In this document: positions 10,894-63,895 of the stretch, piece after piece
How positions within the stretch are numbered: the stretch's first letter is position 1
Layout of the letters: each line of letters opens with the position of its first letter
Source: Chondrilla cf. caribensis
Taxonomy: Eukaryota > Porifera > Demospongiae > Chondrillida > Chondrillidae
Assembly (NCBI GenBank): GCA_964020155.1
Contig: OZ026548.1
Span: forward strand, 3,589,897 to 3,653,896
Length of the DNA stretch: 64,000 nucleotides
Direction: 5' to 3'
Notes under the pieces: generated by a model
What the model saw: only the letters and a program-made list of their open reading frames with translations
What the model was told of the DNA's origin: nothing
Databases searched by the model: none
Translations under genes and position numbers: made by a program

Positions 10894-11499
10894 TCACATA
10901 TCCACATACAGGCGTATTTCACCATTTTTTTCCGAAATGATGACTAATGGTGAAACCCAGGGAGTTGGACCTTCCACTGGTTCAATGATACCCTGTTGCT
11001 CTAATCTTTGAAGCTCGGATGCAACTTGTCGTCTTAAATGGAAGGGTATTCTTCTTGCAGGCTGTGCGACTGGTACTACTGATTCACTGATGTGCAACTT
11101 CACCTCGAAATCTTTCAATTTCCCAATGCCCTCAAAGAGACCTGGATACCTTCCTGCTATATGGTGACCTGTTGAAACGGCATTAATATTGATGTTGACC
11201 ATGCCCAGGGCAAGTGCTGTTGTGAAGCTGAGCAGTGACCCGTATGCTCCTTGTACCACATGGATCGTTGTCTTGATGCTTTTGTCACCAACTCTGATGT
11301 CTTCATCAAATTTCCTTATTACTGCAAGTTGAGACTGTGATCCATTGGCGAAAATTTGTGTTGATGACGGTTGCAGGTCAATTGGCATCTTCTCTGCCAC
11401 CCTTCCGTAGGTTTCTTTGTCCATGATGTTGGCTGAAGCACCCGTATCAATGGTCATGCTAACTTGGATGCTACCTATAGTGACTGTGATTCGTGGCAC
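10894..11499 (-). pseudogene. gypsy protease and start of RT (minus element), copy A
   Basis: An open frame of 201 codons: VSMTIDTGASANIMD is an intact retropepsin active-site loop with flap sequences. It continues to RRIPFHLRRQVASELQRLEQ and GIIEPVEGPTPWVSPLVII, the conserved RT entry. It stops at the next frame break. The protease would cleave Gag-Pol. Confidence 0.82.
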
Positions 11500-11601
11500 T
11501 TTCTGCTTGCTGTGATTTCGGGTTACGGTGTACAGATATTATTCATCACTAGTACTACTGCTGTAATCTGGACTTTCTGGGTTGGTAGAAACCTGGTGAA
11601 C

Positions 11602-12426
11602 TCATGTCTTGGGTATGGAGGATGACATTTGTTGGGGTTGAATGCGCTTGAATTTGTCTGCTGTTGTGCTTCGGCATACTCGTGCAAAGTGATTCATCTT
11701 TCCACACTTGCGACACATCTGTCCCAACGCAGGACATGGATTGTCCTTATGAGGCCACGTGAGACCGCACTTCCGACATTGGCTATTGCCTGGTTTCTTC
11801 GGGAACACTGTAGCTGTCTGTTGCGTGTGACTACCTTTGGGTTTACCTTCACGGAGACGATGCACTGTGTCTTGTGGTGTCGCTGATGATTGTTCCATCC
11901 CACAAGCTTGTCGTTCACTGGCCTCTAAGGCTCGAACTTTGGCTAAAAGTTTTTCTAAGGTTAAATTGTCCTCTCTCAAGGCATAGCAATGTAGCTGCTT
12001 CGATTGACAGTGTTGCATTACAGCTGCTTTCAATTCTTTGTCTGCATCTGAAAACTCACAGGTAACGGCTAACTTGCACAAGCGGGCTACGTACTGATTG
12101 ATTGTCTCACCATCTTGTTGAACAGCTTGTCGAAATTGGAACGTTTTGAAGTCCACGTTCTTCTTTGGAGCGAAATAGTTGTCACGCCTTTTAAGCGCTG
12201 TGGCATAAGTGTCTCCCGTGTCTGTAAACGTGTCGAATAATTTTTGTGTCTCCTGCCCGGCATGGTAAAGTAGTAAAGCACGCTTTCGCTTGTCGTCGGT
12301 GACATTCACGGCCGCCAAATAAGTCTCAAAACGACGCTTCCACGTCTTCCATCGTTGACTAAGAGAAGTCGGGTCAGCCGCAGGATCAAATGGAGGGAGC
12401 GGTGCAATATTGACTTTGTGCGCCAT
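11602..12426 (-). CDS. gypsy gag, largely intact (minus element), copy A
   Basis: A 274-codon open frame from MAHKVNIAPLPPFDP through the capsid-like core (WKTWKRRFETYLAAV, FRQAVQQDGETINQYVARL) to a nucleocapsid with two cysteine clusters. The second is the CCHC knuckle CRKCGKMNHFARVC. This start is preceded by the TGGCGATGAGG leader 20-40 bp upstream. Copy B has frameshifts in this gene, so copy A is the better version. Whether it is expressed is unknown. Confidence 0.85.
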   Translation of the reverse strand: MAHKVNIAPLPPFDPAADPTSLSQRWKTWKRRFETYLAAVNVTDDKRKRALLLYHAGQETQKLFDTFTDTGDTYATALKRRDNYFAPKKNVDFKTFQFRQAVQQDGETINQYVARLCKLAVTCEFSDADKELKAAVMQHCQSKQLHCYALREDNLTLEKLLAKVRALEASERQACGMEQSSATPQDTVHRLREGKPKGSHTQQTATVFPKKPGNSQCRKCGLTWPHKDNPCPALGQMCRKCGKMNHFARVCRSTTADKFKRIQPQQMSSSIPKT

Positions 12427-25239: not shown

Positions 25240-28200
25240 CAGGAGGGTGTGTGGTCCGGCTAGATGAGAGGGTGTGGTCCTAGCAAAGGAGAGGGTGTAG
25301 TCCTGGTACTTGAGAGAGGTGGTCCTTGCAGATGTGAAGGTGTGGTTCTTGCAGATGAGAGGAGTGGCCCTGGCAGATGAGAGGAGTGGTCCTGCAGATG
25401 AGAGGAGTGGTCCTACAGATGAGAGGAGTGGTCCTGGAAGATGAGGGGAGTGGTCCTGGTAGATGGGAGGAATGGTCCTTGCAGATGAGAGGAGTGGTCC
25501 TGGCAGATGAGGGGAGTGGTCCTGGCAGATGTGAGGAGTGGTCCTACAGATGAGAGGTGTGGTCCTGGTAGATGGGAGGAGTGGTCCTTGCAGATGAGAG
25601 GAGTGGTCCCTGCAGATGAGGGGAGTGGTCTAGGCAGATGAGAAGAGGTGGTCCTGGCAGATGAGAGGAGTGGTCCTGGCAGTGAGAGGAGTGGTCCTGG
25701 AAGATGTGATTAGTGGTCAAATGAGATCTTGAAGAGTGGTCCTGGCAGATGTGAGGAGTGGTCCTGGCAGATGAGAGAAGTGGTCCTGGTAGATGGGAGG
25801 AGTGGTCCTTGCAGATGAGAGGAGTGGTCCCTGCAGATGAGGGGAGTGGTCTAGGCAGATGAGAAGAGGTGGTCCTGGCAGATGAGAGGAGTGGTCCTGG
25901 CAGTGAGAGGAGTGGTCCTGGTAGATGTGATTAGTGGTCAAATGAGATCTTGAAGAGTGGTCCTGGCAGATGTGAGGAGTGGTCCTGTCAGATGAGGAGT
26001 GGTCCTGGCAGATGAGAGAAGTGGTCCTGGCAGATGGGAGGAGTGGTCCTGGTAGATGAGAGAAGTAGTCCTGGCAGATGGGAGGAGTGGTCCTGTCAGA
26101 TGAGAGGAGTGGTCCATGCGGATGAGAGGAGTAGTCCTGGTAGATGGGAGGAGTGGTCCTGGCAGATGAGAGGAGTGGTCCTGGCAGATGAGAGGAGTGG
26201 TCCATGCGGATGGGAGGAGTGGTCCTGGCAGATGAGGGGAGTGGTCCGGGCAGATGAGGGGAGTGGTCCGGGCAGATGGGAGGAGTGGTCCTGGCAGATA
26301 AAGGGAGTTGTCCTGTCAGATGAGAGGAGTGGTCCAGGCAGATGAGAGGAGTAGTCCTGGTAGATGAAGGGAGTGGTCTCTGTAGATGAGAAGAGTGGTC
26401 CTGGCAGACGAGAGGAGTGGTCTCGTCAGATATGAGGAGTGGTCCTGGTAGATGAGAGGAGTGGTCCTGGTAGATGAGAGGAGTGGTCCTGGCAGGTGGG
26501 AGGAGTGGTCCTGTCAGATGTGAGGAGTGGTCCAGGCAGATGAGAGGAGTAGTCCTGGTAGATGAAGGGAGTGGTCCGGGCAGATGAAGGGAGTGGTCCT
26601 GTCAGATGAGAGGAGTGGTCCATGCGGATGAGAGGAGTAGTCCTGGTAGATGGGAGGAGAGGTCCTGTCAGATGAGGGGAGTGGTCCGGGCAGATGGGAG
26701 GAGTGGTCCTGGCAGATAGAGGGAGTGGTTCTGTCAGATGAGAGGAGTGGTCCAGGCAGATGAGAGGAGTAGTCCTGGTAGATGAGAGGAGTGGTCCTGG
26801 CAGATGAGGGGAGTGGTCCTGGTAGATGAGGGGAGTGGTCCTGTCAGATGAAGGGAGTGATCCTGTCAGATGAGAGGAGTGGTCCAGGCAGATGAGAGGA
26901 GTAGTCCTGGTAGATGAAGGGAGTGGTCCGGGCAGATGAAGGGAGTGGTCCTGTCAGATGAGAGGAGTGGTCCATACGGATGAGAGGAGTAGTCCTGGTA
27001 GATGGGAGGAGTGGTCCTGGCAGATGAGGGGAGTGGTCCGGGCAGATGGGAGGAGTGGTTCTGGCAGATAAAGGGAGTGGTCCTGTCAGATGAGAGGAGT
27101 GGTCCAGGCAGATGAGAGGAGTAGTCCTGGTAGATGAAGGGAGTGGTCTCTGTAGATGAGAAGAGTGGTCCTGGCAGACGAGAGGAGTGGTCTCGTCAGA
27201 TATGAGGAGTGGTCCTGGTAGATGAGAGGAGTGGTCCTGGTAGATGAGAGGAGTGGTCCTGGTAGATGAGAGGAGTGGTCCTGGCAGGTGGGAGGAGTGG
27301 TCCTGTCAGATGTGAGGAGTGGTCCAGGCAGATGAGAGGAGTAGTCCTGGTAGATGAAGGGAGTGGTCCGGGCAGATGAAGGGAGTGGCCCTGTCAGATG
27401 AGAGGAGTGGTCCATGCGGATGAGAGGAGTAGTCCTGGTAGATGGGAGGAGTGGTCCTGGCAGATGAGGGGAGTGGTCCGGGCAGATGGGAGGAGTGGTC
27501 CTGGCAGATAGAGGGAGTGGTTCTGTCAGATGAGAGGAGTGGTCCAGGCAGATGAGAGGAGTAGTCCTGGTAGATGAAGGGAGTGGTCCGGGCAGATGAG
27601 AGGTGTTATCCTGGTAGATGGGAGGAGTGGTCCTGATAGATCAGGGGAGTGGTCTCTGTAGATGAGAGGAGTGGTCCTGGCAGATGAGAGGAGTGGTCTC
27701 TGTAGATGAGAGGAGTGGTCCTGTCAGATGAGAGGAGTGGTCCTGATAGATCAGAGGAGTGGTGTCTGTAGATGAGAAGAGTGGTCCTGGCAGACGAGAG
27801 GAGTGGTCTCTGTAGATGAGAGGAGTGGTCCTGGCAGATGCGAGGAGTGGTCCTGGTAGATGGGAGGAGTGGTCCTGGTAGATGAATGGAATTGGTCCTG
27901 TCAAATGAGAGGAGTGGTCCTGGCAGATGAAGAGAGTGGTCTCGTCAGATGTGAGGAGTGGTCCTGGTAGATCAGAGGAGTGGTCTCTGTAGATGAGAAG
28001 AGTGGTCCTGGCAGACGAGAGGAGTGGTCCCTGTAGATGAGAGGAGTGGTCCTGGCAGATGTGAGGAGTGGTCCTGGTAGATGGGAGGAGTGGTCCTGGC
28101 AGAAGAAGGGATTGGTCCTGTCAAATGAGAGGAGTGGTCCTGGCAGACGAGAGGAGTGGTCCTGGCAGATGAAGGGAGTGGTCTCGTCAGATGTGAGGAG

Positions 28201-30230
28201 TGGTCCTGGCAGAAGAAGGGATTGGTCCTGTCAAATGAGAGGAGTGGTCCTGGCAGACGAGAGGAGTGGTCCTGGCAGATGAAGGGAGTGGTCTCGTCAG
28301 ATGTGAGGAGTGGTCCTGGTAGATCAGAGGAGTGGTCCTGGTAGATGAGAGGAGTGGTCCTGGCAGGCGGGAGGAGTGGTCCTGTCAGATGTGAGGAGTG
28401 GTCCTATCAGATGAGAGGAGTGGTCCCGGTAGACGAGAGGAGTGGTCCTGGCAGATGAGAGGAGTGGTCCTGTCAGATGTGAAGGGTGATCCTATCAGAT
28501 GAGAGGAGTGGTCCCGGTAGATGAGAGGAGGGGTCCTGGAAGATGAGAGGAGTGGTCCTGGCAGACAAGAGGAGTGGTCCTGGGAGATGAAAGGAATGGT
28601 TCTGGTAGATGGGAGGAGTGGTCCTGGTAGATGGGAGGAGTGGTCCTGGTAGATGGGAGGAGTGGTCAGATGAGATCTTGAGGAGTGGTCCTGGCAGATG
28701 GGAGGAGTGGTCCTGGCAGATGAGGGGAGTGGTCCTGGCAGATGAGGGGAGTGGTGATGTCAGATGAAGGGAGTGGTCCTGTAAGATGAGAGGAGTGGTC
28801 CAGGCAGATGAGAGGAGTAGTCCTGGTAGATGAAGGGAGTGGTCCGGGCAGATGAAGGGAGTGGTCCTGTCAGATGAGAGGAGTGGTCCATGCGGATGAG
28901 AGGAGTAGTCCTGGTAGATGGGAGGAGTGGTCCTGGCAGATGAGGGGAGTGGTCCGGGTAGATGGGAAGAGTGGTCCTGGCAGATGAAGGGAGTGGTCCT
29001 GTCAGATGAGAGGAGTGGTCCAGACAGATGAGAGGAGTAGTCCTGGTAGATGAAGGGAGTGGTCTCTGTAGATGAGAAGAGTGGTCCTGGCAGACGAGAG
29101 GAGTGATCCTGGTAGATGAGAGGAGTGGTCCTGGTAGATGAGAGGAGTGGTCCTGGTAGATGAGAGGAGTGGTCCTGGCAGGTGGGAGGAGTGGTCCTGT
29201 CAGATGTGAGGAGTGGTCCTGGTAGATGAGAGGAGTGGTCCTGGTAGATGAGAGGAGTGGTCCTGGCAGGTGGGAGGAGTGGTCCTGTCAGATGTGAGGA
29301 GTGGTCCTATCAGATGAGAGGAGTGGTCCCGGTAGATGAGAGGAGGGGTCCTGGAAGGTGAGAGGAGTGGTCCTGGCAGACGAGAGGAGTGGTCCTATCA
29401 GATGAGAGGAGTGGTCCCGGTAGACGAGAGGAGTGGTCCTGGCAGATGAGAAGAGTGGTCCTGTCAGATGTAAGGAGTGATCCTATCAGATGAGAGGAGT
29501 GGTCCCGGTAGATGAGAGGAGGGGTCCTGGAAGATGAGAGGAGTGGTTCTGGCAGACGAGAGGAGTGGTCCTGGGAGATGAAGGGAGTGGTTCTGGTAGA
29601 TGGGAGGAGTGGTACTGGTAGATGGGAGGAGTGGTCCTGGTAGATGAGAGGAGTGGTCCTGGAAGATGGGAGGAGTGGTACTGGTAGATGGGAGGAGTGG
29701 TACTGGTAGATGAAAGGAGTGGTCCAGGCAGATGAGAGGGGTGGTCCTGGTAGATGGGAGGACTGGTCCTGGTAGATGAGAAAAGTGGTCCTGGCAGATG
29801 AAGGGAGTGGTCCTGTCAGATGTGAGGAGTGGTCCTAGTAGATGGGAGGAGTGGTACTGGTAGATGGGAGGAGTGGTCCTGGTAGATGAGAGGAGTGGTC
29901 CAGGCAGATGAGAGGAGTGGTCCTGGTAGATGAGAGGAGTGGTCCTGGTAGATGGGAGGAGTGGTCCTGGCAAATGAGAGGAGTGGTCCTGGCAGATGGG
30001 AGGACTGGTCCTGGTAGATGAGAAAAGTGGTCCTGGCAGATGAAGGGAGTGGTCCTGGCAGATGTGAGGAGTGGTCCTGGCAGACGAGAGGAGTGGTCCT
30101 GGCAGATGAGAGGAGTGGACCTGGTAGATGAGAGGAGTGGACCTGGTAGATGAGAGGAGTGGTCCTGGCAGATAAGATGAGTGGTCCTGGAAAATTTGAG
30201 AGTGTGGTACTCCTAAAGGAGAAGGTTTAC
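25240..30230. repeat. 5-kb 22-bp minisatellite
   Basis: About 225 tandem copies of a 22-bp unit close to gagtggtcctggcagatgag+ag, with recurrent variants (gtctctgtagatg, ccatgcggatg, tcagatgtgagg). Since 22 is not a multiple of three and the unit lacks stops on the minus strand, it gives long frames with a 22-residue period (LPGPLLSSARTTPLICQDHS). These are not evidence of a gene. Higher-order repeats exist: segments near 26426-26623 and 27218-27415 match at a distance of 792 bp (36 units). The top strand is strongly purine/G-rich. Confidence 0.97.
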
Positions 30231-31646: not shown

Positions 31647-31737
31647 CTGTAACAAAGTATTACAAAAGATGATGAATTCCCACTTCCAATCCAGTCATCT
31701 CCGGAAATACGTAACACACACAGTCACACTTACGTAC

Positions 31738-32864
31738 TTGTGAAGATGCTAGTTCTTCTACAATTTTGGCTGTGACGTCATCAACAGTTTTCTTGGTCTC
31801 AAAGTGCCCTATGGCATCAAGTAGGGTCTTCCATGTCACCTGGCTGCCATGTTTCAACCAGTGCTTCAACATGGAGTAGTAAGCCTCGTCATCACTTGGA
31901 GCTTCCTCACCCAGTCTGTCCAGTCCGTCCTCATCTACCTCCAAGAGATTTCCCACTCTTTCCCATTTGTCTTTGTGTTGTAGTTTGGACAGAATATGCT
32001 TGTCTATGAGTGAACGACTGGGTCTTCCTCCCATGATCCTGTTAGCATCGCTAATCTCTTCCCCTCCCACTAACTGGTAACCCAAAAAAGACAAGATTCT
32101 TGAAGTGGCTTCTTTACCAACTTCATCACATTCAAACAGCTCTTTTACAGCCAGGACATGAATTATGTACTTCTGTTCCATCTGTTTTGGTAGGTTGGCC
32201 CACAGACCAGGTCCACCACCTGCTCTCTCGATCATACTGGCAATGTAGTGAAAGTCAAACTGACGAGCTATGTCCAGTGGACTTAGTCCGTTAGGAAAGA
32301 GCTCGTTAACTGTATACTTTGTAGATGAGTGAGAGATTAGCTTGTCTATGAAGACTTTGTAGTCCTTAACACCTCTCTTGATACTATTTTCCACAGAGTA
32401 ATTCTTTAAGATCTTGCATGTTATCAAAGAAATGTGCAGCGGAGAGAGAGGACATTCATCTTGTAAATGAAGCTGTTGAAAGATATTAACTGTTTGAAAA
32501 GGGAAGTAGTGACACAAAACATTTTTTGTCATCGACCATGTTTGATGGGCTGCTTCAGTGAACATACTCTCATCTCTGGAAAGTGTCCTTATCACCAGTG
32601 GATCACCTGTGAAGGAACCTAAAATCAAGAGCTTACAAGGATCAAAGAGATTCCTATTCTTGAGAGAGAGAATGGATTCTCTGATGCTATCTCCAAGGTC
32701 ATTGAACCCACAGGCCTTACAGAGTTCAGGCAATTTGTTCATCTGTCCACACATTACAGCTACTTCAAACATGGAAAGACCATAACAGTTTTGAGTAGCA
32801 AAATTACAATGTTTGGAAATCAAAAAATTTACAATTTCCACATGGCCTTCTCCAGCTGCCCACA
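31738..32864 (-). CDS. Death-domain exon of ankyrin-Death-CARD gene
   Basis: 1,127 bp from an acceptor (ctgacttctttag) to a donor (gtacgt). It begins within a last ankyrin repeat (WAAGEGHVEIVNFL), followed by about 230 residues of non-repeat helical sequence including SPLDIARQFDFHYIASMIER. The Death domain at about 31745-31990 has KWERVGNLLEVDEDGLDRLG, YYSMLKHWLKHGSQVTWKTL and LLDAIGHFETKKTVDDV: the six-helix pattern with conserved W, D and MLxxWL. Ankyrin plus Death combinations occur in ankyrins, NF-kB p105 and DAPK, and Death domains recruit adaptors to signalling complexes. Confidence 0.8.
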
Positions 32865-32919
32865 CTAAAGAAGTCAGACCCATGGGATTACAGCAATCAA
32901 GAGGATTATTACCAGGTAC
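32865..32919 (-). other. Predicted 55-bp intron
   Basis: A donor gtacct and an acceptor ctttag leave phase 1 on both sides and connect the ankyrin exon to the Death exon in frame. All downstream phases then agree. Without it the frame shifts by one base. It is short even for sponge introns, so a 1-bp indel is the alternative. Confidence 0.5.
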
Positions 32920-35900
32920 ACAGTTGATTAGATGAATCTACCTCTGATTCAGTGACCATTGGGTGTTGTGGACAATATTGCTCATATATTGCATCTGATA
33001 ATACTGTCACTACTTGTACAGAACCACTAAAAACTGCCTGATGTAGAGGAGTTCCAAAAACACCTGCCATTATGTCTGGATTAGCTCCTAACCTCAGTAA
33101 TTCATGCACTGCTTCCAAATTACCTTCAGTAACTGCTGAATGGAGGGGAGTGGAGCCATTAGCATCTTCTCTATTGACATCAATTCCACATTCTACCAAC
33201 CAACCTAGTAATTCAACATGACCACCTTGGGCAGCAAAATATAGGACACTTTGACCAATACTATCCACCACATCAATCGGACAACCTTCATGAAGTAAAA
33301 CTGACATTACCTTCTTATGACCACCCAATGCAGCTTGATGTAGTGGAGTCCCGTAAGTACCAGCAACCTTTGTCATTGATGCCTTTCCACCCAATCTCAG
33401 CAATTCATGTACTGCTTCCACTTTGCCTACAGCAGCTGCTGAGTGGAGGGAAGTGTTGTCAATAGCATCTTCTCGATTGACATCCAAACCACATTCTACC
33501 AACCAATATACTAATTCAACATGACCACCTTGGGCAGCAAAATGTAGGACACTTTCACCACTACTGCTCAATACATCAATCGGACAACCTTCATCCAATA
33601 AAACTGACATTACCTTCTTGTGACAACTCAATGAAGCTTAATGTAGTGGAGTCCCGTATGTACCAGCAACCTTTGTCATTGATGACTTTCCACCCAATCT
33701 CAGCAATTCATGCACTGCTTCCACTTTGCCATGACGTGCTGCTGAGTGGAGGGGAGTGTGGCCATTAGCAGCTTCTATATTGACATCCAAACCACATTCT
33801 ACCAACCAATATACTAATTCAACATGACCACCTGCGGCAGCAAAATGTAGTACACTTTGACCACTACTGTTCACCACATCAATTGGACAACCTTCATCCA
33901 ATAAAACTGACATTACCTTCTTGTGACCACCCAATGCAGCATAATGTAGTGGAGTCCCGTAAGTACCAGCAACCTTTGTCATTGATGACTTTCCACCCAA
34001 TCTCAGCAATTCATGCACTGCTTCCACTTTGCCATGACGTGCTGCTGAATGGAGGGGAGTGTGGCCATTAGCAGCTTCTATATTGACATCCAAACCACAT
34101 TCTACCAACCAATATACTAATTCAACATGACCACCTGCGGCAGCAAAATGTAGTACACTTTGACCACTACTGTTCACCACATCAATTGGACAACCTTCAT
34201 CCAATAAAACTGACATTACCTTCTTGTGACCACCCAATGCAGCATAATGTAGTGGAGTCCCGTAAGTACCAGCAACCTTTGTCATTGATGACTTTCCACC
34301 CAATCTCAGCAATTCATGTACTGCTTCCACTTTGCCATTACGTGCTGCTGAGTGGAGGGGAGTGTAGCCATCAGCATCTTCTCGATTGACATCCAAACCA
34401 CATTCTACCAACCAACTTAGTAATTCAACATGACCACGGTAGGCAGCAAAATGTAGGACACTTTCACCACTACTGCTCAATACATCAATCGGACAACCTT
34501 CATCCAATAAAACTGACATTACCTTCTTGTGACCACCAAATGCAGCATGATGTAGTGGAGTCCCGCAAGTACCAGCAACCTTTGTCATTGATGCCTTTCC
34601 ACCCAATCTCAGCAATTCATGTACTGCTTCCACTTTGCCATTACGTGCTGCTGAATGGAGGGGAGTGTAGCCAATAGCATCTTCTTTATTGACATTCAAA
34701 CCACATTCTACCAACCAATATACTAATTCAACATGACCACCTTGGGCAGCGGAATGTAGGACACTACGACCACGACTATCCACCACATCAATCGGACAAC
34801 CTTCATCCAATAAAACTGACATTACCTTCTTGTGACCACCCAATGCAGCTTGATGTAGTGGAGTCCCGTAAGTACCAGCAACCTTTGTCATTGATGCCTT
34901 TCCACCCAATCTCAGCAATTCATGTACTGCTTCCACTTTACCATTACGTGCTGCTGAGTGGAGGGGAATGTAGCCATTAGCAGCTTCTATATTGACATCC
35001 AAACCACATTCTACCAACCAATATACTAATTCAACAAGACCACCTTGGGCAGCAAAATGTAGGACACTTTCACCACTACTGCTCAATACATCAATTGGAC
35101 AACCTTCATCAAGTAAAACTGACATTACCTTCTTGTGACCACCCAATGCAGCCCGATGTAGTGGAGTCCCGTAAGTACCAGCAACCTTTGTCATTGATGC
35201 CTTTCCACCCAATCTCAGCAATTCATGTACTGCTTCCACTTTGCCATTACGTGCTGCTGAATGGAGGGGAGTGTTGCCATTAGCATCTTCTCGATTGACA
35301 TCCAAACCACATTCTACCAACCAATATACTAATTCAACATGACCAACTTGGGCAGCAAAATGTAGGACACTTTGACCAATACTATCCACCACATCAATCG
35401 GACAACCTTCATCAAGTAAAACTGACATTACCTTCTTGTGACCACCAAATGCAGCATGATGTAGTGGAGTCCCGTAAATACCAGCAACCTTTGTCATTGA
35501 TGCCTTTCCACCCAATCTCAGCAATTCATGTACTGCTTCCACTTTGCCTATAGCAGCTGCTAAGTGGAGGGAAGTGTTGCCATTAGCATCTTCTCGATTG
35601 ACATCCAAACCACATTCTACCAACCAATATACTAATTCAACATGACCACCTTCGGTAGCGGAATGTAGGACACTTTGACCACTACTCTTCACCACATCAA
35701 TCGGACAACCTTCATCCAATAAAACTGACATTACCTTCTTGTGACCACCCAATGCAGCCTGATGTAGTGGAGTCCCGTAAGTACCAGCAACCTTTGTCAT
35801 TGATGACTTTCCACCCAATCTCAGCAATTCATGCACTGCTTCCACTTTGCCATGACGTGCTGCTGAGTGGAGGGGAGTGTAGCCATTAGCAGCTTCTATA

Positions 35901-38900
35901 TTGACATCCAAACCACATTCTACCAACCAATATACTAATTCAACATGACCACCTGCGGCAGCAAAATGTAGGACACTTTCACCACTACTGTTCACCACAT
36001 CAATTGGACAACCTTCATCCAATAAAACTGACATTACCTTCTTGTGACCACCCAATGCAGCATGATGTAGTGGAGTCCCGTAAGTACCAGTAACCTTTGT
36101 CATTGATGACTTTCCACCCAATCTCAGCAATTCATGTACTGCTTCCACTTTGCCATTACGTGCTGCTGAATGGAGGGGAGTGTAGCCAATAGCATCTTCT
36201 TTATTGACATTCAAACCACATTCTACCAACCAATATACTAATTCAACATGACCACCTGCGGCAGCAATATGTAGTACACTTTGACCACTACTGTTCACCA
36301 CATCAATTGGACAACCTTCATCAAGTAAAACTGACATTACCTTCTTGTGACCACCCAATGCAGCATAATGTAGTGGAGTCCCGTAAGTACCAGCAACCTT
36401 TGTCATTGATGACTTTCCACCCAATCTCAGCAATTCATGTACTGCTTCCACTTTGCCATTACGTGCTGCTGAGTGGAGGGGAGTGTAGCCATCAGCATCT
36501 TCTCGATTGACATCCAAACCACATTCTACCAACCAACTTAGTAATTCAACATGACCACGGTAGGCAGCAAAATGTAGGACACTTTCACCACTACTGCTCA
36601 ATACATCAATCGGACAACCTTCATCCAATAAAACTGACATTACCTTCTTGTGACCACCAAATGCAGCATGATGTAGTGGAGTCCCGCAAGTACCAGCAAC
36701 CTTTGTCATTGATGCCTTTCCACCCAATCTCAGCAATTCATGTACTGCTTCCACTTTGCCATTACGTGCTGCTGAATGGAGGGGAGTGTAGCCAATAGCA
36801 TCTTCTTTATTGACATTCAAACCACATTCTACCAACCAATATACTAATTCAACATGACCACCTTGGGCAGCGGAATGTAGGACACTACGACCACGACTAT
36901 CCACCACATCAATCGGACAACCTTCATCCAATAAAACTGACATTACCTTCTTGTGACCACCCAATGCAGCTTGATGTAGTGGAGTCCCGTAAGTACCAGC
37001 AACCTTTGTCATTGATGCCTTTCCACCCAATCTCAGCAATTCATGTACTGCTTCCACTTTACCATTACGTGCTGCTGAGTGGAGGGGAATGTAGCCATTA
37101 GCAGCTTCTATATTGACATCCAAACCACATTCTACCAACCAATATACTAATTCAACAAGACCACCTTGGGCAGCAAAATGTAGGACACTTTCACCACTAC
37201 TGCTCAATACATCAATTGGACAACCTTCATCAAGTAAAACTGACATTACCTTCTTGTGACCACCCAATGCAGCCCGATGTAGTGGAGTCCCGTAAGTACC
37301 AGCAACCTTTGTCATTGATGCCTTTCCACCCAATCTCAGCAATTCATGTACTGCTTCCACTTTGCCATTACGTGCTGCTGAATGGAGGGGAGTGTTGCCA
37401 TTAGCATCTTCTCGATTGACATCCAAACCACATTCTACCAACCAATATACTAATTCAACATGACCAACTTGGGCAGCAAAATGTAGGACACTTTGACCAA
37501 TACTATCCACCACATCAATCGGACAACCTTCATCAAGTAAAACTGACATTACCTTCTTGTGACCACCAAATGCAGCTAGATGTAGTGGAGTCCCGTAAAT
37601 ACCAGCAACCTTTGTCATTGATGCCTTTCCACCCAATCTCAGCAATTCATGTACTGCTTCCACTTTGCCTATAGCAGCTGCTAAGTGGAGGGAAGTGTTG
37701 CCATTAGCATCTTCTCGATTGACATCCAAACCACATTCTACCAACCAATATACTAATTCAACATGACCACCTTCGGTAGCGGAATGTAGGACACTTTGAC
37801 CACTACTCTTCACCACATCAATCGGACAACCTTCATCCAATAAAACTGACATTACCTTCTTGTGACCACCCAATGCAGCATGATGTAGTGGAGTCCCGTA
37901 AGTACCAGCAACCTTTGTCATTGATGACTTTCCACCCAATCTCAGCAATTCATGCACTGCTTCCACTTTGCCATTACGTGCTGCTGAGTGGAGGGGAGTG
38001 TAGCCATTAGCAGCTTCTATATTGACATCCAAACCACATTCTACCAACCAATATACTAATTCAACATGACCACCTGCGGCAGCAAAATGTAGGACACTTT
38101 CACCACTACTGTTCACCACATCAATTGGACAACCTTCATCCAATAAAACTGACATTACCTTCTTGTGACCACCCAATGCAGCTTGATGTAGTGGAGTCCC
38201 GTAAGTACCAGCAACCTTTGTCATTGATGACTTTCCACCCAATCTCAGCAATTCATGTACTGCTTCCACTTTGCCATTACGTGCTGCTGAATGGAGGGGA
38301 GTGTAGCCAATAGCATCTTCTTTATTGACATTCAAACCACATTCTACCAACCAATATACTAATTCAACATGACCACCTGCGGCAGCAATATGTAGTACAC
38401 TTTGACCACTACTGTTCACCACATCAATTGGACAACCTTCATCAAGTAAAACTGACATTACCTTCTTGTGACCACCCAATGCAGCTTGATGTAGTGGAGT
38501 CCCGTAAGTACCAGCAACCTTTGTCATTGATGCCTTTCCACCCAATCTCAGCAATTCATGCACTGCTTCCACTTTGCCTACAGCAGCTGCTAAGTGGAGG
38601 GAAGTGTTGCCATTAGCATCTTCTTTATTGACATTCAAACCACATTCTACCAACCAATATACTAATTCAGCATGACCACCGTAGGCAGCAAAATATAGGA
38701 CACTTTGACCACTACTGTTCACCACATCAATTGGACAACCTTCATCCAATAAAACTGACATTACCTTCTTGTGACCACCCAATGCAGCCTGATGTAGTGG
38801 AGTCCCGTAAGTACCAGCAACCTTTGTCATTGATGCCTTTCCACCCAATCTCAGCAATTCATGTACTGCTTCCACTTTGCCATTACGTGCTGCTGAATGG

Positions 38901-41563
38901 AGGGGAGTGTGGCCAATAGCATCTTCTTTATTGACATTCAAACCACATTCTACCAACCAATATACTAATTCAACATGACCACTTGCAGCAGCGGAATGTA
39001 GTACACTTTGACCACTACTGTTCACCACATCAATTGGACAACCTTCATCCAATAAAACTGACATTACCTTCTTGTGACCACCAAATGCAGCTTGATGTAG
39101 TGGAGTCCCGTAAGTACCAGCAACCTTTGTCATTGATGACTTTCCACCCAATCTCAGCAATTCATGTACTGCTTCCACTTCGCCATTACGTGCTGCTGAG
39201 TGGAGGGGAGTGTGGCCAATAGCATTTTCTCGATTGACATCCAAACCACATTCTACCAACCAATATACTAATTCAACATGACCACCTGCGGCAGCAAAAT
39301 GTAGGACACTTTGACCAATACTATCCACCACATCAATTGGACAACCTTCATCAAGTAAAACTGACATTACCTTCTTGTGACCACCAAATGCAGCTAGATG
39401 TAGTGGAGTCCCGTAAGTACCAGCAACCTTTGTCATTGATGACTTTCCACCCAATCTCAGCAATTCATGTACTGCTTCCACTTTGCCATTACGTGCTGCT
39501 GAATGGAGGGGAGTGTGGCCAATAGCATCTTCTTTATTGACATTCAAACCACATTCTACCAACCAATATACTAATTCAACATGACCACTTGCAGCAGCGG
39601 AATGTAGTACACTTTGACCACTACTGTTCACCACATCAATTGGACAACCTTCATCCAATAAAACTGACATTACCTTCTTGTGACCACCAAATGCAGCCTG
39701 ATGTAGTGGAGTCCCGTAAGTACCAGCAACCTTTGTCATTGATGACTTTCCACCCAATCTCAGCAATTCATGTACTGCTTCCACTTCGCCATTACGTGCT
39801 GCTGAGTGGAGGGGAGTGTGGCCAATAGCATTTTCTCGATTGACATCCAAACCACATTCTACCAACCAATATACTAATTCAACATGACCACCTGCGGCAG
39901 CAAAATGTAGGACACTTTGACCAATACTATCCACCACATCAATTGGACAACCTTCATCAAGTAAAACTGACATTACCTTCTTGTGACCACCAAATGCAGC
40001 TAGATGTAGTGGAGTCCCGTAAGTACCAGCAACCATTGTCATTGATGCCTTTCCACCCAATCTCAGCAATTCATGTACTGCTTCCAGTTTACCATTACAT
40101 GATGCTGAGTGGAGGGGAGTGTAACCATCATTAGCTTGTACATTAGCAGAAACTCCTCTAGCAATCAGTTCTCTAATCACTTCAACATGTCCTCCTTCTG
40201 CTGCTCTATGGAGGGCAGTATATCCACGACCATCTGGCACATCCACTGGACATCTGTGTTCTAATATTGCTAACACAGTCTGCATATCACCAAGGTAGGA
40301 TGATTGGAACAGCAAATCACGGACAGTCTCATCATCTAGTGCTGCTATAAACTCTAGTCTTGTTCCCTTTTCATCTGAAACCTCTTCTTTCTGCTCACAC
40401 TCAACACCCTCCACTCCACCATACTTCAACAGTTCTTCCTGCGTTGAATAGTTCTCACACATCACTGCCTTTTTCAATGGGGTATTACCTTCATAATCTA
40501 AATAGTTAACATTGCTACCTAGATCAACCAGGACACCTATAGGAGCCGCTCCTCCACTTGTTGCGGCATGATGTAAGGGAGTGCGGCCGTGTCGGTCCAC
40601 TGGATCAATACAGCAACCTCTCTCGTGGAGAAGTTTCATCACCTCAACCTGTCCATGTGATGCAGCATGATGGAGAATGGAACAACCCTCTTCATCAGTC
40701 AGGTCGGGTGATAATCCTAAATCGAGGTAATTCTTTACCAATACAATGTTCCCAGATTGGGCAGCCTCAAACACATCACCGTCATCATCCACATCATAGT
40801 CTACTTTGTCCTTCAGCTCTTGCTTTACTTCTTCCATTCCAGAGTCTTGTGGTGGACAGTCACTCTTTGCGATACCATTTTCATCTGGTTGTAGTTCTTC
40901 AACATGCACTATTCCTCCATGTACACCTTCTGTAGTGAACCGTACACTACTCACAATACAGTGGGATTCTACTTCCTGTTCACCACTCACAGTACTGCGG
41001 GATACTGCTTCCTGTTCACCACCCATAATACACTGGGATTCTATTTCCTGTTTGCTCACAGTACTGTATGATACCACTTCCTTTTCTCGAATCACACTAC
41101 AGTGGGATTTTACTTTCTGTCCACCGCTAACAGTACTGCTGGATTCTACTTCCTGTTTATCACTGACAGTACTGTTGGATTCTACTTCCTGTTCACCACT
41201 CATGGTACTATGAGATTCTATCTCCTGTTTACCACTTGTAGTACTGTGGGATTCTACTTCCTGTTCACCTCTTGTAGTTATGTGGGATTCTACTTCCTGT
41301 TTAACACTTGTAGTACTGTGGGATTCTACTTCCTGTTTAACACTTGTAGTACTGTGGGATTCTACTTCCGGTTCACCCCCATATTTTGAAGTCACAGCAT
41401 CTGCTATGGCTTCATCACCTTGTTGTCCACTAAACTCCACACCTTCTTTGACCTCATGATGTACACGTATTTCAGAATCTTGTATATTTTGTGCTATCAG
41501 TGTATCTATACTGTCATCCTCATTATCAATATGATCTTTCTTTAGATATTTCGAGTCAGCCAT
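32920..41563 (-). CDS. Giant ankyrin-repeat exon of ankyrin-Death-CARD gene
   Basis: 8,644 bp, 2,881 codons from ATG 41563 (MADSKYLKK, context aaaATGGc, preferred over the weaker Met 66 bp upstream). Residues about 65-210 are twelve copies of a 12-residue repeat (EVESHSTTSVKQ). Residues about 260-485 are seven diverged ankyrin repeats (GRTPLHHAA, GYTALHRAAEGGHVEVIREL). From about 488 come 23 near-identical 101-residue units, each three ankyrin repeats (GTPLHQAALGGHKKVMSVLL; GQSVLHFAAAGGHVELVYWL; GHTPLHSAARNGKVEAVHEL). No signal peptide or membrane segment, so it is probably cytosolic. A single TAA at 33638-33640 in unit 22 interrupts an otherwise open frame. Ankyrin arrays bind proteins; the ligand is unknown. 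Confidence 0.85.
32990..40110 (-). repeat. 303-bp tandem coding array with higher-order repeats
   Basis: Twenty-three 303-bp units. Variant residues show larger duplications: units 1-2 repeat as 3-4 (606 bp), units 6-12 repeat as 13-19 (7 x 303 = 2,121 bp, for example 34186 and 36307), and units 20-21 are a near-identical pair. Units are numbered from the N-terminal end (40.1 kb). Differences cluster at a few codons: L/Q/H/R/Y after GTPLH, F/L in AA(F/L)GG, VN/VD/VK/VL after CPID, and the residues before the third repeat. Confidence 0.95.
33638..33640 (-). other. In-frame TAA nonsense codon in ankyrin array
   Basis: Other units read CTACATCAAGCT (LHQA) here; this unit reads CTACATTAAGCT, a single C-to-T change. 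Nearby residues also differ (SLSCHKK for ALGGHKK). The frame is open for 239 further codons and then into the Death exon. Confidence 0.9.
40945..41380 (-). repeat. 36-bp coding minisatellite
   Basis: Twelve units of 36 bp (one lacks a codon) encode EVESHSTTSxKQ-like 12-mers near the N-terminus of the ankyrin protein. The repeat is acidic, Ser/Thr-rich and probably disordered. Confidence 0.9.
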
Positions 41564-41686
41564 TTTGTTACACTGTGTGTTGATTCCACACAATCTCGTC
41601 AAGGCTACATGAATGATTAAAATAGACAATTATGCAAGTCTCCAGATACACTCAAGTGAGAAGGGGTTATATTGAAATTCAACATA

Positions 41687-44209: not shown

Positions 44210-44430
44210 TACAGTGGTGATTAAAAGTAACTTACCTTGCCATGCGCATTTCAGGCGCGTGTGTGTGCGTGATACGTGCGTGCCTCGTACGAGTGACAGA
44301 ATTCGCAGTGATTATGATTATAATTAGCGCCCTAGATATGAAAATGGTGGCCATGGGTACAAAACAGTAACTAGGCAATAGCTCGATATAAGTTATTCTT
44401 AGTTTGATTCGTTCACGAAGTTGTCAAACG

Positions 44431-45456
44431 ATGTCTTCCAAGCACCTGTCTCAGTATTTCCGTGAAAGGATCGTGCGCTTATGGATGAATGGATCTAGCG
44501 TCGCATCAATAGTATCGACGATGACCGACGAAGGGAGACCAGTCTCTGCAGTTACGGTTCGAAAGTGGATCTTCAGATGGGAGAAGACCAACTCGTTAGA
44601 AAGCCATTATCGTAGTGGGAGACCATCTACCATAACTAGCGAAATAGCAGCGTTTATGGACAGTTCGCTCGACGAAGATGATGAGCTGTCTTCTTCGGAG
44701 ATACGAAGACTGATTGCTAGGAAATTTGGCGTGAGTTTGTCGTCCGCAACTATCCGACGATACCTGCGAAAGAATCTAGAGTGGGTGGTTATTAGAACAA
44801 GACCAGGCCCCATGATTTCTAGCACTAACAAAGTGAAAAGATTGGAATTTGCCAGGATGTGTCTTAGCACTGATGACGACTTGGGCAATATTATCTGGAC
44901 AGATGAGTCATCAATTCAACTGAAGCGACATTGCCAAACCATGAGGGTGAAAGTCCAAAGAGAGAGGGAATACAAGCCAGTGCCAAAACATGCAGTTAAA
45001 GTTCATGTCTGGGCTGGAATTTCCATGCTTGGAGCAACAAAAATTTGTATATTTGACAAGATTATGGATGCTTCTCTCTATGTGAACATTTTGGAGGACT
45101 TTCTGTTGCCTTTTTTGGAAGAGACATTTGCTACCAAGACATATCGATTTATGCAGGACAATGATCCGAAACACACTAGTCGTCTTGCCAAGGCATTTTA
45201 TGAAGAAAAAGGCATCAACTGGTGGCCAACCCCAGCAAGCAGCCCGGATATAAATCCAATTGAACGAGTATGGAGTGAGCTAAAATACTACATTGCCCGT
45301 TATGTCAAACCCCTTACCAAGGACGAGCTTGTGCAAGGTATCAAGACCTTCTGGAAAGAAAGGATGACACAGGAGAAGTGTGCAAGGTATATTGCACATA
45401 CCCATGTGGTTCTCCCTAAAGTAGTTGAGGCAGAAGGAGGAGTCATGGGAGAGTAA
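44431..45456 (+). CDS. Tc1/mariner-superfamily DD34E transposase, intact
   Basis: 341 residues, a typical Tc1 length. Two helix-turn-helix units: residues 9-50 (RERIVRLWMNGSSVASIVST) and 88-112 (EIRRLIARKFGVSLSSATIR), joined by a GRPS hook at 63-66. Catalytic residues: Asp158 in IIWTDESS, Asp243 in RFMQDNDPKHTS, Glu278 in SPDINPIERVW, with exactly 34 residues between the last two. ATG 44431 starts 219 bp inside the left end. It binds the terminal repeats, cuts out the element and inserts it at TA. No stop, frameshift or missing catalytic residue. Confidence 0.95.
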   Translation: MSSKHLSQYFRERIVRLWMNGSSVASIVSTMTDEGRPVSAVTVRKWIFRWEKTNSLESHYRSGRPSTITSEIAAFMDSSLDEDDELSSSEIRRLIARKFGVSLSSATIRRYLRKNLEWVVIRTRPGPMISSTNKVKRLEFARMCLSTDDDLGNIIWTDESSIQLKRHCQTMRVKVQREREYKPVPKHAVKVHVWAGISMLGATKICIFDKIMDASLYVNILEDFLLPFLEETFATKTYRFMQDNDPKHTSRLAKAFYEEKGINWWPTPASSPDINPIERVWSELKYYIARYVKPLTKDELVQGIKTFWKERMTQEKCARYIAHTHVVLPKVVEAEGGVMGE

Positions 45457-45732
45457 TTTTATACTATTGTTAGGACAGTAACTGTAACTGTTACATTATA
45501 TTTTATTGATATTTAGTATTTTGATTTTTGATCATAATATTGGCCACGTCATGCCATGCCTTTGCGTTCTATGTCATCAATTGTGACCACAACTCTATTT
45601 AATTACCAGGAATATCACACAACCATGAATAGTAACAATACATTTAGCAGATGTATAATGTACAATAATAAAAGCAAAATGTAGAAGTTAAAATACGAAC
45701 TAAAATCAAAACCAAATAATAAGCACTGCCAG
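45457..45732. other. Convergent intergenic region of the transposon
   Basis: AT-rich 276 bp between the transposase stop and the BEN-gene stop. AATAAA occurs on the plus strand at about 45668, a possible polyadenylation signal for the transposase. Confidence 0.45.
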
Positions 45733-47359
45733 TCACTGTATGCTCCTCCCTCTGCTACGCCTCTTTAGCTGCCTACAACTGCTGTCGATAGCAACCCTGT
45801 ACGGCTTCCAAAGATCTTCGGTGGTATGTCCTGGCCGTACAGGGTACATGCTAAAAACGGCTGACTTCACAGCACTTAGCCGTTCTGGGGACAATCTTTT
45901 TTTCCCATAACGATGGTCTCCAGCACAATTAGATGTGGCCCGTTCCAACTCCGAATAACACGCTCGAACTAGCTGTACTGCGAAGTTACACTTCGAAGTT
46001 GCATCCATATAGCATTTGTCAATGACTGCCTTTTTAATGGTATAAGGAGGCCCAAGATGGTAGTCCTCCAGAACATCTTCCAGATGGACAATATCGCTAA
46101 AATCTTCTCTGTTGGTAGATGTGCATGGCGTCTTGACAGAATCATCAAAATGTCGGGATGGAGATGTACTATGGACGGATGATGATACTTGCTGAGGTGT
46201 GTGATGGGATGGGGGATATGAATGCAGAGGTGGCATAACGGGCGTGTACGAATGAGGGGTTGGTTGGTATACAGTAGGAATGTGTGGGTAATACTGAGGT
46301 GATGGTTGATATAAATAAGGGAGAGGAAGACGAGATTGTATGGGTGGTGGATAAGAATAAGTGGGATGTGGATGTGATTGAGGGGGTGGTGGATAAGAAT
46401 AAGTGGGATGTGGATGTGATTGAGGGGGTGGTGGATAAGAATAAGTGGGATGTGGATGTGATTGAGAGGGTGGTGGATAAAATTGAGGGGGAGGGGGTTG
46501 CGATTGAGAGGGTGGTGGATAAAATTGAGGGGGAGGGGGTCGCGATTGAGAGGGCGGTGGATAAAATTGAGGGGGAGGGGGTTGCGATTGAGAGGGAGGG
46601 GTGTTGGATAGAGAGGGTGGTGAAAAAGATTGAGAGGGAGGGGTTTGCGACTGGGAGGGTGGTGAATAAGATTGAAGAGGAGGGGGCTGTTCTGGTGATC
46701 CATACAAACGGCGGCTGGATACAATCGAATGACGGCTTGATTGCTGAATCCGCTTCACAGGTGATGGCCGATGTGATGTAGCTGGTGACGGTGGCAGTGA
46801 TCGTGCTACAGGTGACAGTGTGTTAGATAAATCACACAATGGTGTCCTGTTGCTTGCAGTTTTAGTGATTTCTTCCTGGGTCACATCACATGCAGGTGGA
46901 GGTGGTGTTCCACTTCCCAGCCATGGTGAATTGTCACTCTATAGGTAGGAGGATACAAGAGAAGTGAAGTGTACAAGTTTGAGACTGGTAAATGATATCA
47001 GGTATGTTGATAAAGTACAGATAGTTCTAAAGCCATAGTAACAGCGTACGCGTACTGGGTTAAGTTAAAACTAAAAATCTTAATTAATAACGAAACACGT
47101 CACTTGTTCTTACCTTAGAAGCTGATTTTTTCTTTTGTGTCTTCTTCTTCAGGGCCTTCTTCGACTTTGGAGGCTGCCAATCTAACAAGTCAACCACCGA
47201 TGCTCGGTAGCGCTTTGCGTATAGCTTGACCACGATTTCGTCGCCGACGGCTATCCCTTCCAAACTTTCTATTACGTGTTTGACGTTCACCCGATTTCTG
47301 GTCCCTTGGTCCTTCGATTCCAGCCATTCCACTAAAATCTCGTTCGCTTTCCTTGGCAT
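45733..47359 (-). CDS. Proline-rich BEN-domain protein, transposon cargo
   Basis: Two exons, 47359-47114 and 46938-45733, with a 175-bp intron (donor gtaaga, acceptor cctacctatag, phase 0); 483 residues. Residues 1-82: FALV-type opening (EILVEWLESKDQGTRNRVNV, VGDEIVVKLYAKRYRASVVD) then a lysine-rich stretch. This opening is common in BEN proteins. About 168-345: Pro/Gln/Tyr repeats (PPPPQFYPPPSQSQ). About 365-475: BEN domain (LGPPYTIKKAVIDKCYMDAT, FAVQLVRACYSELERAT, KKRLSPERLSAVKSAVFSM, LWKPYRVAIDSSCRQL). BEN domains bind DNA and repress chromatin. ATG 47359 lies 181 bp inside the right end. It could bind the element's ends or silence or protect it; a captured host gene is the other reading. 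Confidence 0.85.
46320..46620 (-). repeat. Coding tandem repeats in the BEN gene
   Basis: Three or more copies each of a 45-bp unit (SHPHPTYSYPPPPQ) and a 48-bp-class unit (PPPPQFYPPPSQS). The opposite-strand frames (VVDKNKWDVDVIEG) are mirror images of this repeat and not a gene. Confidence 0.9.
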
Positions 47360-47541
47360 TGCGAGCTCCGCGTTACTTTACTAAGATCGACTTCACACGT
47401 TGTGCGTCACGTATAATTGCATGCGGAAACGTGCGAATTCCACACTCGCGCTCGACACTCGTACGAGTCACGCACGAGACTCTCTAGCTATCTTCGTGTT
47501 AATCGCGTTTTAGGGGTAAGTTACTTTTAATCACCACAGTA

Positions 47542-52298: not shown

Positions 52299-52904
52299 TC
52301 AAATAAAAAAAATGCGATAGTGGACCTTTAAGGGCTTCATGAACTTTTCGGCTTCAGCATTAGCTTGTGGCCAGTTTGGTGTTGTCCTCTGATGTCGAAT
52401 ACCTTGCTCTTCCATAAAGGTCTTGAAATCACGGCTAGTGAAAGGTGGGCTGTTATCACTTCGTAAATTCCTTGGTATGCCATGCATTGCAAAAATTTGT
52501 GCCAACTTGTTAATTGTGGTCTTTGCCGATGTGGAATGTACTATGTCTACCTCTGGGAACCTGGAATATGCATCTATTACGACTAACAGGTATTCACCTG
52601 TTAAAAATGGGCCACCGAAATCAATGTGGACAGTATGCCACAGTTCAGGAGGCAATGGAGACATTTGTAGTGGATTGGGATGCAGATCTGGACCATTTGC
52701 TTGACAAGCCAAACACTCTCCGACCACTTTCTTCACCTCTTCATCTATTCCTGGAAACCAAATCTTCTCTCTAAGGAGCTGTTTGCTTTTAACAATGCCC
52801 TGATGGCCTTCATGTACAATGGCTATTGCTTGCTTTCTTAACTTCATTGGCATGACAATGCGAGTTCCTTTTAGAATCACGTTCGCATCGTCGTTCACCG
52901 TCAA
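52299..52904 (-). pseudogene. gypsy integrase (minus element), copy B
   Basis: It keeps the zinc-binding domain (IVHEGHQGIVKSKQL ... VGECLACQAN), the first Asp in VHIDFGGPF, the second in RNLRSDNSPPFTS and the Glu region WPQANAEAEKFMKPLK. It is open for 201 codons, better than copy A, but the C-terminal domain is replaced by foreign sequence. Confidence 0.85.
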
Positions 52905-53008
52905 CTCTTCTCAAACCTTGTAAAATTGTCTCAACTCTGTGTTGTTCACTCCTATCTCGTTATCCTGACACCTCGGTAAATCCCATTTGTCTTTGCGAAT
53001 AAGATCTG

Positions 53009-53251
53009 CTATAACTTTTGGAGCGTGGTGTCTTCCTTTGTTGCTGCCTCAATCTCACTCAACGACATTGCCTTTGGAACTGCATGATCAGATAGGAAGT
53101 TGACATAGCGTGATGCCCTTTTTTCCTCATGCTGAATTGTGTCTTGACTAGGATCTAGGATGCCTTGATAAAAAGTCGGATGGATTGCTGATTCCTCGGG
53201 TGTGGACAATGGAGAAATCATAATAATTATTCTTGAAGACGTAAATTCCAT
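53009..53251 (-). pseudogene. gypsy RNase H-integrase linker (minus element), copy B
   Basis: FYQGILDPSQDTIQHEEKRA and MSLSEIEAATKEDTTLQKL match the spacer of copy A. Frameshifts lie on both sides (for example at about 53012 and 53222). Confidence 0.6.
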
Positions 53252-54198
53252 CTTTCGATCCTAGCTGGTGGCTTTGACTTGGGATTGCTGAGTATCAACT
53301 GAATTGGCTTGCAATCCGTAAGAAGCGTGAAATGCCCTCCATACAAATACATATGGAGACGCTCTACTGCCCAGACTATAGCAAGTACTTCTTTCTCTGT
53401 TTGCGAATATCTCTGCTCTACTGGAGATAGTGATCGGCTAACAAAGGCAACAATCTTGTGGTCGTCTTGTCCCTCTGTATGCTGCAACAGAATTGCTGAG
53501 AGGCCCCATGGAGACGCATCAGAAATGAGCTCTGTCTGCTTGTTCTTGTCAACATAGGCCATGACAGTGGTACTTGTGAGCAAATCCTTCATCTTTTGAA
53601 ATGCTTGCTGCTGTTGCTCTCCCCATACAAAACGGTTGTTCTTTTTGGTCAATTCTCGCAAAGGCATCGCGACATCACTAAAATTTGGGATGAACTTGGT
53701 ACAATATGTAGCCATGCCAAGGAAGCTTCTCACTCCACTTGCCGACGTTGGTGGTGGAGCATCGTAAATTGCCTGGACCTTTGCTGGATCCGGTGACACT
53801 CCGGCGGACGAGAATACGAATCCAAAAAATGAAAGTGTACTCTTGCTGAACTCGCATTTCTTCTTGTTGAAGGTCAGCCCCATCTTGTTAAACTGCTGGA
53901 AAACCGCTTCTAGTGCCTTGTCGTGCACTTCTTTGGTCTTGCCAAAGACAATGATGTCGTCGCTCACATTCATGGCATTTGGGATGTCCCTGATTTGACC
54001 GCCTACCACCTTCTGGAACAATTCACCTGCCGAATTTGTCCTGAAGTTTAATCGTGCAAATCTCCTCAAGCCTTTGTGCGTTGCAAAGGTGGTGATATAC
54101 CTGCTTTCTGGTGCAAGTGACAACTGGTGATATCCAGACCTACGGTCAAGCTTGGAGAATACTGTATCACCGTTGAGTGCGTGAATGAGATCATCCAC
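53227..54198 (-). pseudogene. gypsy RT and RNase H (minus element), copy B
   Basis: 323 open codons: TVFSKLDRRSGYHQLSLAPE (motif A), NVSDDIIVFGK (motif C, with VSDD instead of the usual YxDD), KKKCEFSKSTLSFFGFVFSS, SFLGMATYCTKFIPNFSD, then RNase H ELISDASPWGLSAIL and SQTEKEVLAIVWAVERLHMY. It is the better-preserved RT of the two copies. The unusual motif C and upstream frame breaks argue against activity. Confidence 0.85.
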
Positions 54199-63229: not shown

Positions 63230-63895
63230 AATGTAAAGGTGTGGTTCTGGCAGATGTGCAGGTGTGATCTTGGCTAGAAGAGGGTGTGGTACTGACAATG
63301 AAAAGGATGTGGTCCTGGTAAGGGAGAGGTGTGGTTGCGGATATTGAGAGAGCATATTCAAGCAAAGGAGAGGGTGGGGTCTTAACAAACAAGAAAGTTG
63401 GTCCTGGAAAAAGGTAAGGGTGTGGTTTTGGCAGATGAGAGGTGATGTCTTAGTAGGTGAGAGGAGTGGTCCTGGCAGATGAGAGGAGTGGTCCTGGCAG
63501 ATGAAAGGAGGGGTCCTGGCAGATGAGAGGAGTGGTCCTGGCAGATGAGAGGAATGGTCCTGGCAGTTGAGAAGAGTGGTCCTGGCAGATGAGGGGAGTG
63601 GTCCTGGCAGACAAGAGGAGTGGTCCTGGAGGATAGGGAGGAGTGGTCTCGGTAAATGGGGGAGTGGTCCTGGCAGATGAGAGGAGTGGTCCTGGCAGAT
63701 GAGAGGAGTGGTCCTGGTAGATGAGAGGAGTGGTCTCTGTAAATGAGAGGAGTGGTCCTGGCAGATGAGAGGAGTGGTCCTGGCACATGAGAGGAGTGGT
63801 TCTGGCACATGAGAGGAGTGGTCCTGGCAGATGAGAGGAGTGGTCCTGGTAAATGGGGGAGTGGTCCTGGCAGATGAGAGGAGTGACTAACTAAT
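63230..63895. repeat. Second array of the 22-bp minisatellite
   Basis: Degenerate units from about 63230 become regular from about 63460 to 63895 (gtggtcctggcagatgagag+ga). Same unit family and orientation as 25240-30230, about 30 units. Minus-strand frames LPGPLLSSARTTPLIC are artefacts of the repeat. Confidence 0.95.

Follow-up and report, generated by a model that had tools for sequence, protein, structure and literature searches.

The window analysed here, a stretch of 64,000 nucleotides from the sponge Chondrilla cf. caribensis (contig OZ026548.1, positions 3,589,897 to 3,653,896 of the forward strand), harbors at positions 44212-47539 a Tc1-type transposon of 3,328 bp that carries two genes, one for a transposase and one for a protein with a BEN domain. 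Its terminal inverted repeats of 25 bp (left, 44212-44236, plus strand; right, 47515-47539, minus strand) agree at 24 of 25 bases and are bordered by the two copies of a TA target-site duplication (44210-44211 and 47540-47541). Further inside, a pair of subterminal inverted repeats (44275-44295 and 47456-47476) matches at 95%, the left one containing the palindrome CTCGTACGAG (44284-44293) and the right one ACTCGTACGAGT (47457-47468). A first-pass annotation of the window had proposed this TA duplication together with the matching ends and the subterminal repeats, and its coordinates turned out to be exact. The transposon has inserted into a decayed element that shows a CENP-B_N type domain in the left flank (E = 4.2e-05); joining the flanks without the transposon restores a reading frame, and the 27-base junction so formed has one further occurrence in the genome, with zero mismatches. 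As the uninserted paralogue L111 (site C3:3478341), which has a single TA, aligns to both flanks (left 91%, right 89%), with alignments that overlap by the 2 bases of the TA and leave the interior of the element unmatched, the borders and the duplication are demonstrated and not only read by eye. No other match to the end sequence can be found in the 137-Mb genome with up to three mismatches allowed, and by its ends the family counts one copy.

The transposase gene (44431-45456, plus strand) is an open frame of 341 amino acids that matches the Pfam domain DDE_3 (E = 1.7e-15). Residues D158, D243 and E278 are invariant in the 17 rows of alignment A2, with 34 residues between the last two, and the earlier description of an intact DD34E transposase holds. 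Among the best 120 of its 977 relatives in the protein collection, the nearest reaches 92%. By its transposase spacing, TA duplication and terminal inverted repeats the element belongs to the IS630-Tc1-mariner elements of DD34E type, although with two genes in 3,328 bp it departs from the classical Tc1 layout of a single gene in about 1.3 kb.

The second gene lies on the minus strand and faces the first (coding positions 47359-47114 and 46938-45736). Its predicted protein of 483 amino acids, encoded toward the transposase from the other end as first read, is obtained only when a putative GT-AG intron of 175 bp (46939-47113) is removed between exon 1 (47114-47359) and exon 2 (45733-46938; 401 codons and the stop); a long frame is left only by this acceptor and one weaker alternative. 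The transposase gene starts 219 bp inside one end and the BEN gene 180 bp inside the opposite end, in keeping with the approximate 200 bp given for both by the first reading. Against PF10523 the window protein, whose BEN domain lies at 45769-45984 (minus strand), scores 15.1 bits, below the Pfam curated cut-off of 23.2; its relatives reach E = 2e-07 against the same model, and its own predicted fold, with five helices, is clearly that of a BEN domain. The animal BEN folds matched (BEND3, BANP, BEND6 and Insensitive) share this fold but belong to host genes, with a sequence identity of 11-29%. Exon 1 encodes a putative Tudor-like N-terminal domain, an assignment taken from the modelled fold of a relative, P0121. 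Between the two domains a 42-bp tandem repeat (46342-46596, minus strand) codes for a proline-rich linker, whereas a coiled coil is found at that place in relatives of group III (see below). Residues 113-121, RTPLCDLSN, match the destruction-box pattern, a motif that is present in 3 of 21 element proteins and is not general.

The pairing of the two genes is shown for this one genome of 37 contigs only. In it the transposase has 112 matches and the BEN end has 29, and 22 of the latter lie at most 3 kb from one of the 57 transposase places entered, against 0.14 expected, which rules out a chance neighbourhood of the two genes. Nine of these linked BEN matches face the transposase, 13 point away from it and none has the same direction. 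BEN sequence is present at 28 of the 30 best transposase loci; the other two, L022 and L032, are decayed and show no BEN in the 3.4-3.5 kb of locus DNA examined. Both TA-flanked ends were found at 24 of the 30 loci scanned, and all 24 elements thus delimited enclose transposase and BEN sequence, so that the multiple copies keeping both genes, which the first-pass annotation had suggested looking for, do exist. Since the end scan demands a TA, the TA of these relatives is not independent evidence. The N-terminal domain is present in 22 of the 24 elements, the remaining two being shortened derivatives, a full-length open transposase frame in 16, and two-gene members of intact length measure 2.7-4.2 kb. 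The six loci outside the count are C9 (end at the DNA edge), C1a (masked bases), C10c, C3d and C2d (no ends found), and C14, whose right end lies beyond the first DNA stretch and both of whose ends were found later. The profile models benC and nd were partly built from the 24 counted elements; X4, C10a, C12a, C12b and C8b are outside benC (E = 2e-08 to 0.024), and C8b is outside nd (E = 8.7e-12).

Neither of the two outcomes named beforehand as speaking against a two-gene element, a BEN gene in this copy only or BEN-less copies together with nested borders of the BEN gene, was seen. Regarding a nested insertion, no second inverted-repeat pair surrounds the BEN gene and the layout recurs in relatives; a recent capture by the window copy alone is ruled out by the other BEN-carrying elements. 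For five more distant single-gene Tc1-type elements of the same genome (1,349-1,375 bp, with matching ends), the 4.8-5.0 kb examined around them gave no match to BEN; the BEN gene is therefore characteristic of one clade and does not accompany all Tc1 elements here.

The genes face each other in group I (the window element, C22a, C4, C9, C18c and C19) and in group II (C22b, C12a, C12b, C10a and X4, plus C8b by layout), and start near the middle and point outward in group III (C8a, C10b, C2a, C16a, C16b, C19b, C2b, C1a, C1b and C14). End sequences start with CAGT in group I and mostly with CGGTA in groups II and III. The N-terminal domain of the window protein is the best match outside group III of an independent model of that domain (E = 4.1e-4 among 1380 open reading frames). 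In the protein collection 55 relatives of the BEN proteins of group III type can be found, many of them in other assemblies, and none of 34 candidates was a relative of the window's own BEN protein. The transposase and BEN alignments gave no match in viral contigs, and the only match in prokaryote genome contigs, L077, is a chance match inside a bacterial metabolic gene.

Gene trees were built from 21 pairs, with 15 representatives retained for the congruence test. The transposase and BEN trees of these representatives share 8 of 12 splits, a number reached by 0 of 10,000 shuffles and by 15 of 10,000 shuffles within groups, and their path lengths are correlated (r = 0.78; 0 of 10,000 shuffles, 5 of 10,000 within groups). 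Both trees recover group I as well as group III, and in that of the transposases the split between the two-gene rows and three single-gene rows from this genome has a support of 100/100. This comparison of trees, proposed in the first reading, shows that the two genes have largely diversified together. In the most informative pair, C8a and C2a, the transposase has a ratio of non-synonymous to synonymous substitution rates (dN/dS) of 0.08 and a synonymous rate (dS) of 1.4, and BEN has 0.11 and 2.1, respectively; by this measure the BEN gene is under purifying selection there. BEN ratios of 0.26 (C1a-C16a), 0.37 (C4-C9) and 0.21-0.64 (other close pairs) were obtained as well. That a two-gene clade has been kept by selection is very probable.

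Both genes move as one TA-flanked unit, and in at least one family they have done so recently. In the X4 family, the four full copies are spread over three contigs and have different flanks; across roughly 4 kb they show 0-1 substitutions and differ in length by 6-114 columns, and their transposase and BEN frames are open. Short, ends-only deletion derivatives have moved too: the same family includes four copies of 405 bp, to which one end contributes about 285 bp and the other 113 bp, with 0-2 differing positions and with neither BEN nor transposase, and similar short forms can be found in the C1b and C8a families. As these ends-only derivatives moved, the element genes would be supplied in trans. 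In the middle of X4 (C8:4762845-4766875 and three sister copies) a frame resembles, by eye, a retroelement fragment.

Several families possess palindromic motifs of their own near both ends, e.g., CTCGTACGAG in the window element, GTACTCGTRCGAGTAC in C19 and CGGTCGACCG in C12a, together with GTTAAC arrays near the ends of C10a, X4 and C8b. GTTAAC occurs seven times in the X4 derivatives, and 3 and 5 times at the ends of full X4, with none in the middle. Across 16 families 37 perfect palindromes of at least 10 bp were counted against 10 expected (0 of 200 simulations), and three single-gene families have 1 against 1.2 expected.

Taken together, these observations are best read, at a probability of roughly 0.6, as an old clade of autonomous two-gene Tc1-type transposons whose BEN protein acts at the ends of the element itself. 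The first gene would provide the transposase and the second an accessory protein that runs from a Tudor-like domain at the N-terminus through a variable linker, proline-rich in the window element and a coiled coil in relatives, to a DNA-binding BEN domain at the C-terminus. Supplied in trans, this protein would bind the subterminal palindromes of its own element and then aid transposase assembly or alter local chromatin, so that the element is expressed or moved; an action at the element's own ends is the somewhat favored site. The many relatives with the same gene pair suggest that the second protein helps the element and is not an accidental passenger. The first-pass annotation had left a choice between an accessory factor and a recently captured host gene: the retained pair and the largely congruent trees favor the former, and the depth of the association speaks against the latter as a recent capture by the window element alone.

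Several observations weigh against this interpretation. The transposase tree holds group II together only weakly (60/94), the BEN tree breaks it up, and four of the 12 splits differ between the trees; since these concern mostly deep or weak nodes, where long branches meet, BEN genes may have been exchanged deep in the tree. Constraint is weak in some close pairs (dN/dS of 0.47-0.64, and 1.75 on 7 changes for C8a-C10b), and dS is saturated in most distant pairs. Relating the N-terminal domain of one group to that of another is difficult, with E = 0.1-7 for most members of group II. As for the palindromes, microsatellite runs of ACGT type account for 18 of the 37, the element middles show enrichment as well (79 against 40), and the C22a family has no such palindrome.

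The strongest competitor, possible though held with distinctly less confidence, is anti-silencing. The BEN protein would bind short motifs in copies of its own family and remove or block host chromatin marks, like VANC of VANDAL, and such a factor would aid expression rather than cutting and joining. Host BEN proteins are chromatin factors and the modelled relative has a predicted Tudor-like domain, which both count in favor of such a role. The near-end motif arrays also differ between families, as VANC targets are described to diverge (PMC10398659), but their place close to the ends suits the transposition machinery equally well.

A self-limiting repressor, in which the BEN protein would hold the copy number of its own family low by repressing the family's transcription or transposition, appears unlikely. 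Many host BEN proteins repress, copy numbers are low (one by ends in the window family, four full copies in X4), and in the divergent group the gene starts lie close together, such that one regulator at a shared promoter could be envisaged. However, the full copies and deletion derivatives of X4 and C1b moved recently despite open BEN genes.

Chromatin may instead be what the second protein reads. It is rather improbable that a Tudor-BEN chromatin reader recognises the family-specific end palindromes together with chromatin and decides where or when the transposase acts, in the X4 family by directing insertions to a 14-bp satellite stretch; if true, Tc1 transposition would here, in an animal, be a targeted system of two components. 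About as doubtful, or marginally more so, is a target tether, in which the Tudor-like and BEN domains would lead the transposase to particular chromatin, much as chromodomains guide some retrotransposons. One 187-bp tandem-repeat satellite contains six of the eight insertions of the X4 family (two of the four full and all four short copies, namely C18:4640821, C18:4652475 and L078-L081), at three TAs within 14 bp, in both orientations and with flanks differing by 7-28%. The satellite marker has 7,782 matches, or about 1.1% of the genome if each is one unit, and about 0.1 of the eight insertions would hence be expected there. In contrast, no satellite insertion was seen at 13 C1b-family sites, three further C8a-family sites or 20 other two-gene elements, nor at 13 single-gene sites (two being a duplicated site), the check using one 200-bp flank for the single-gene, C1b-family and C8a-family sets. 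With the C1b, C8a and other two-gene sites all outside the satellite, the bias belongs to the X4 family and is not a property of the clade, and it could come from a local base preference of the X4 transposase or from tethering by BEN, between which these data do not distinguish.

That a host BEN gene was captured once and carried along without function is very hard to sustain: 7 of the 29 BEN matches stand alone and BEN genes outside elements exist in the genome, but BEN is kept in 24 of 24 elements, diverges with the transposase and has a dN/dS of 0.11.

Tc1-type elements are textbook one-gene transposons that need nothing but their transposase to function in foreign cells. A second, chromatin-type gene kept through deep divergence would mean that some animal Tc1-type elements depend on a partner or profit from it; the Tc1-type mechanism is known, and the BEN partner protein is what is new. 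The Tc1 family proper shares the DD34E transposase, short inverted ends, TA duplication and cut-and-paste habit, but is described as single-gene with a mean length near 1,300 bp (PMC7325037), compared with 2.7-4.2 kb and a second gene here. The ciliate elements TBE and Tec likewise combine a Tc1/mariner-type transposase with additional genes, namely a zinc-finger protein and a small open reading frame in TBE and a site-specific recombinase in Tec, the inverted ends measuring about 80 and 700 bp, respectively (PMC7325037); going by these descriptions, the BEN gene and the 25-bp-type ends set the present elements apart. Tc1-OP1 of yeast is another long element of Tc1 type whose additional coding sequence has an unknown role, but it is described with one fused protein of 1,155 amino acids in place of a second gene and without mention of BEN (PMC9977792). 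PIF/Harbinger elements (Ping/Pong and mPing) encode two proteins and have deletion derivatives mobilised in trans (PMC2836001). However, they have another transposase superfamily and another second protein, and the need for two proteins, described as established there (PMC2836001), is conjectural here; instead of a Myb-like protein and a Harbinger transposase, Pfam finds Tc1-type and BEN domains only. Searches of the literature, outside Repbase, Dfam and subscription journals, gave no description of a BEN-carrying DNA transposon. VANC, from the plant Mutator-like VANDAL elements, is not known to be a BEN protein. It is comparable as an element-encoded, sequence-specific protein with fast-diverging noncoding repeat targets, and element-encoded anti-silencing proteins are reported as established for VANDAL (PMC10398659). 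The pair is testable now because near-identical copies have both genes open and the short derivatives are a ready donor, and the clade is a source from which animal BEN genes might have been domesticated.

Outside the elements, an open frame at L044:535-1971 (C12:3712241-3713677) joins a Tc1-type N-terminal helix-turn-helix (E = 3e-10, single-sequence search) to a BEN domain, with no transposase nearby, and is possibly a domesticated fusion of both element proteins. BEN genes of group I type at L041:289-1803 and L042:628-1800 have no linked transposase among the places entered and are possibly stand-alone or stranded copies. Elsewhere in the window, the minus strand of 31660-41629 carries frames with ankyrin repeats and a Death domain, which include a 303-bp tandem repeat at 33093-40128. 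A 22-bp tandem repeat at 25251-30190 (224 copies) and 63422-63885 is very strongly asymmetric between the strands, with G in excess of C. Ty3/gypsy-like retroelement pieces, with RNase H in one frame by Pfam and the rest by eye, lie at 9539-12426 and 52299-54198 (minus strand).
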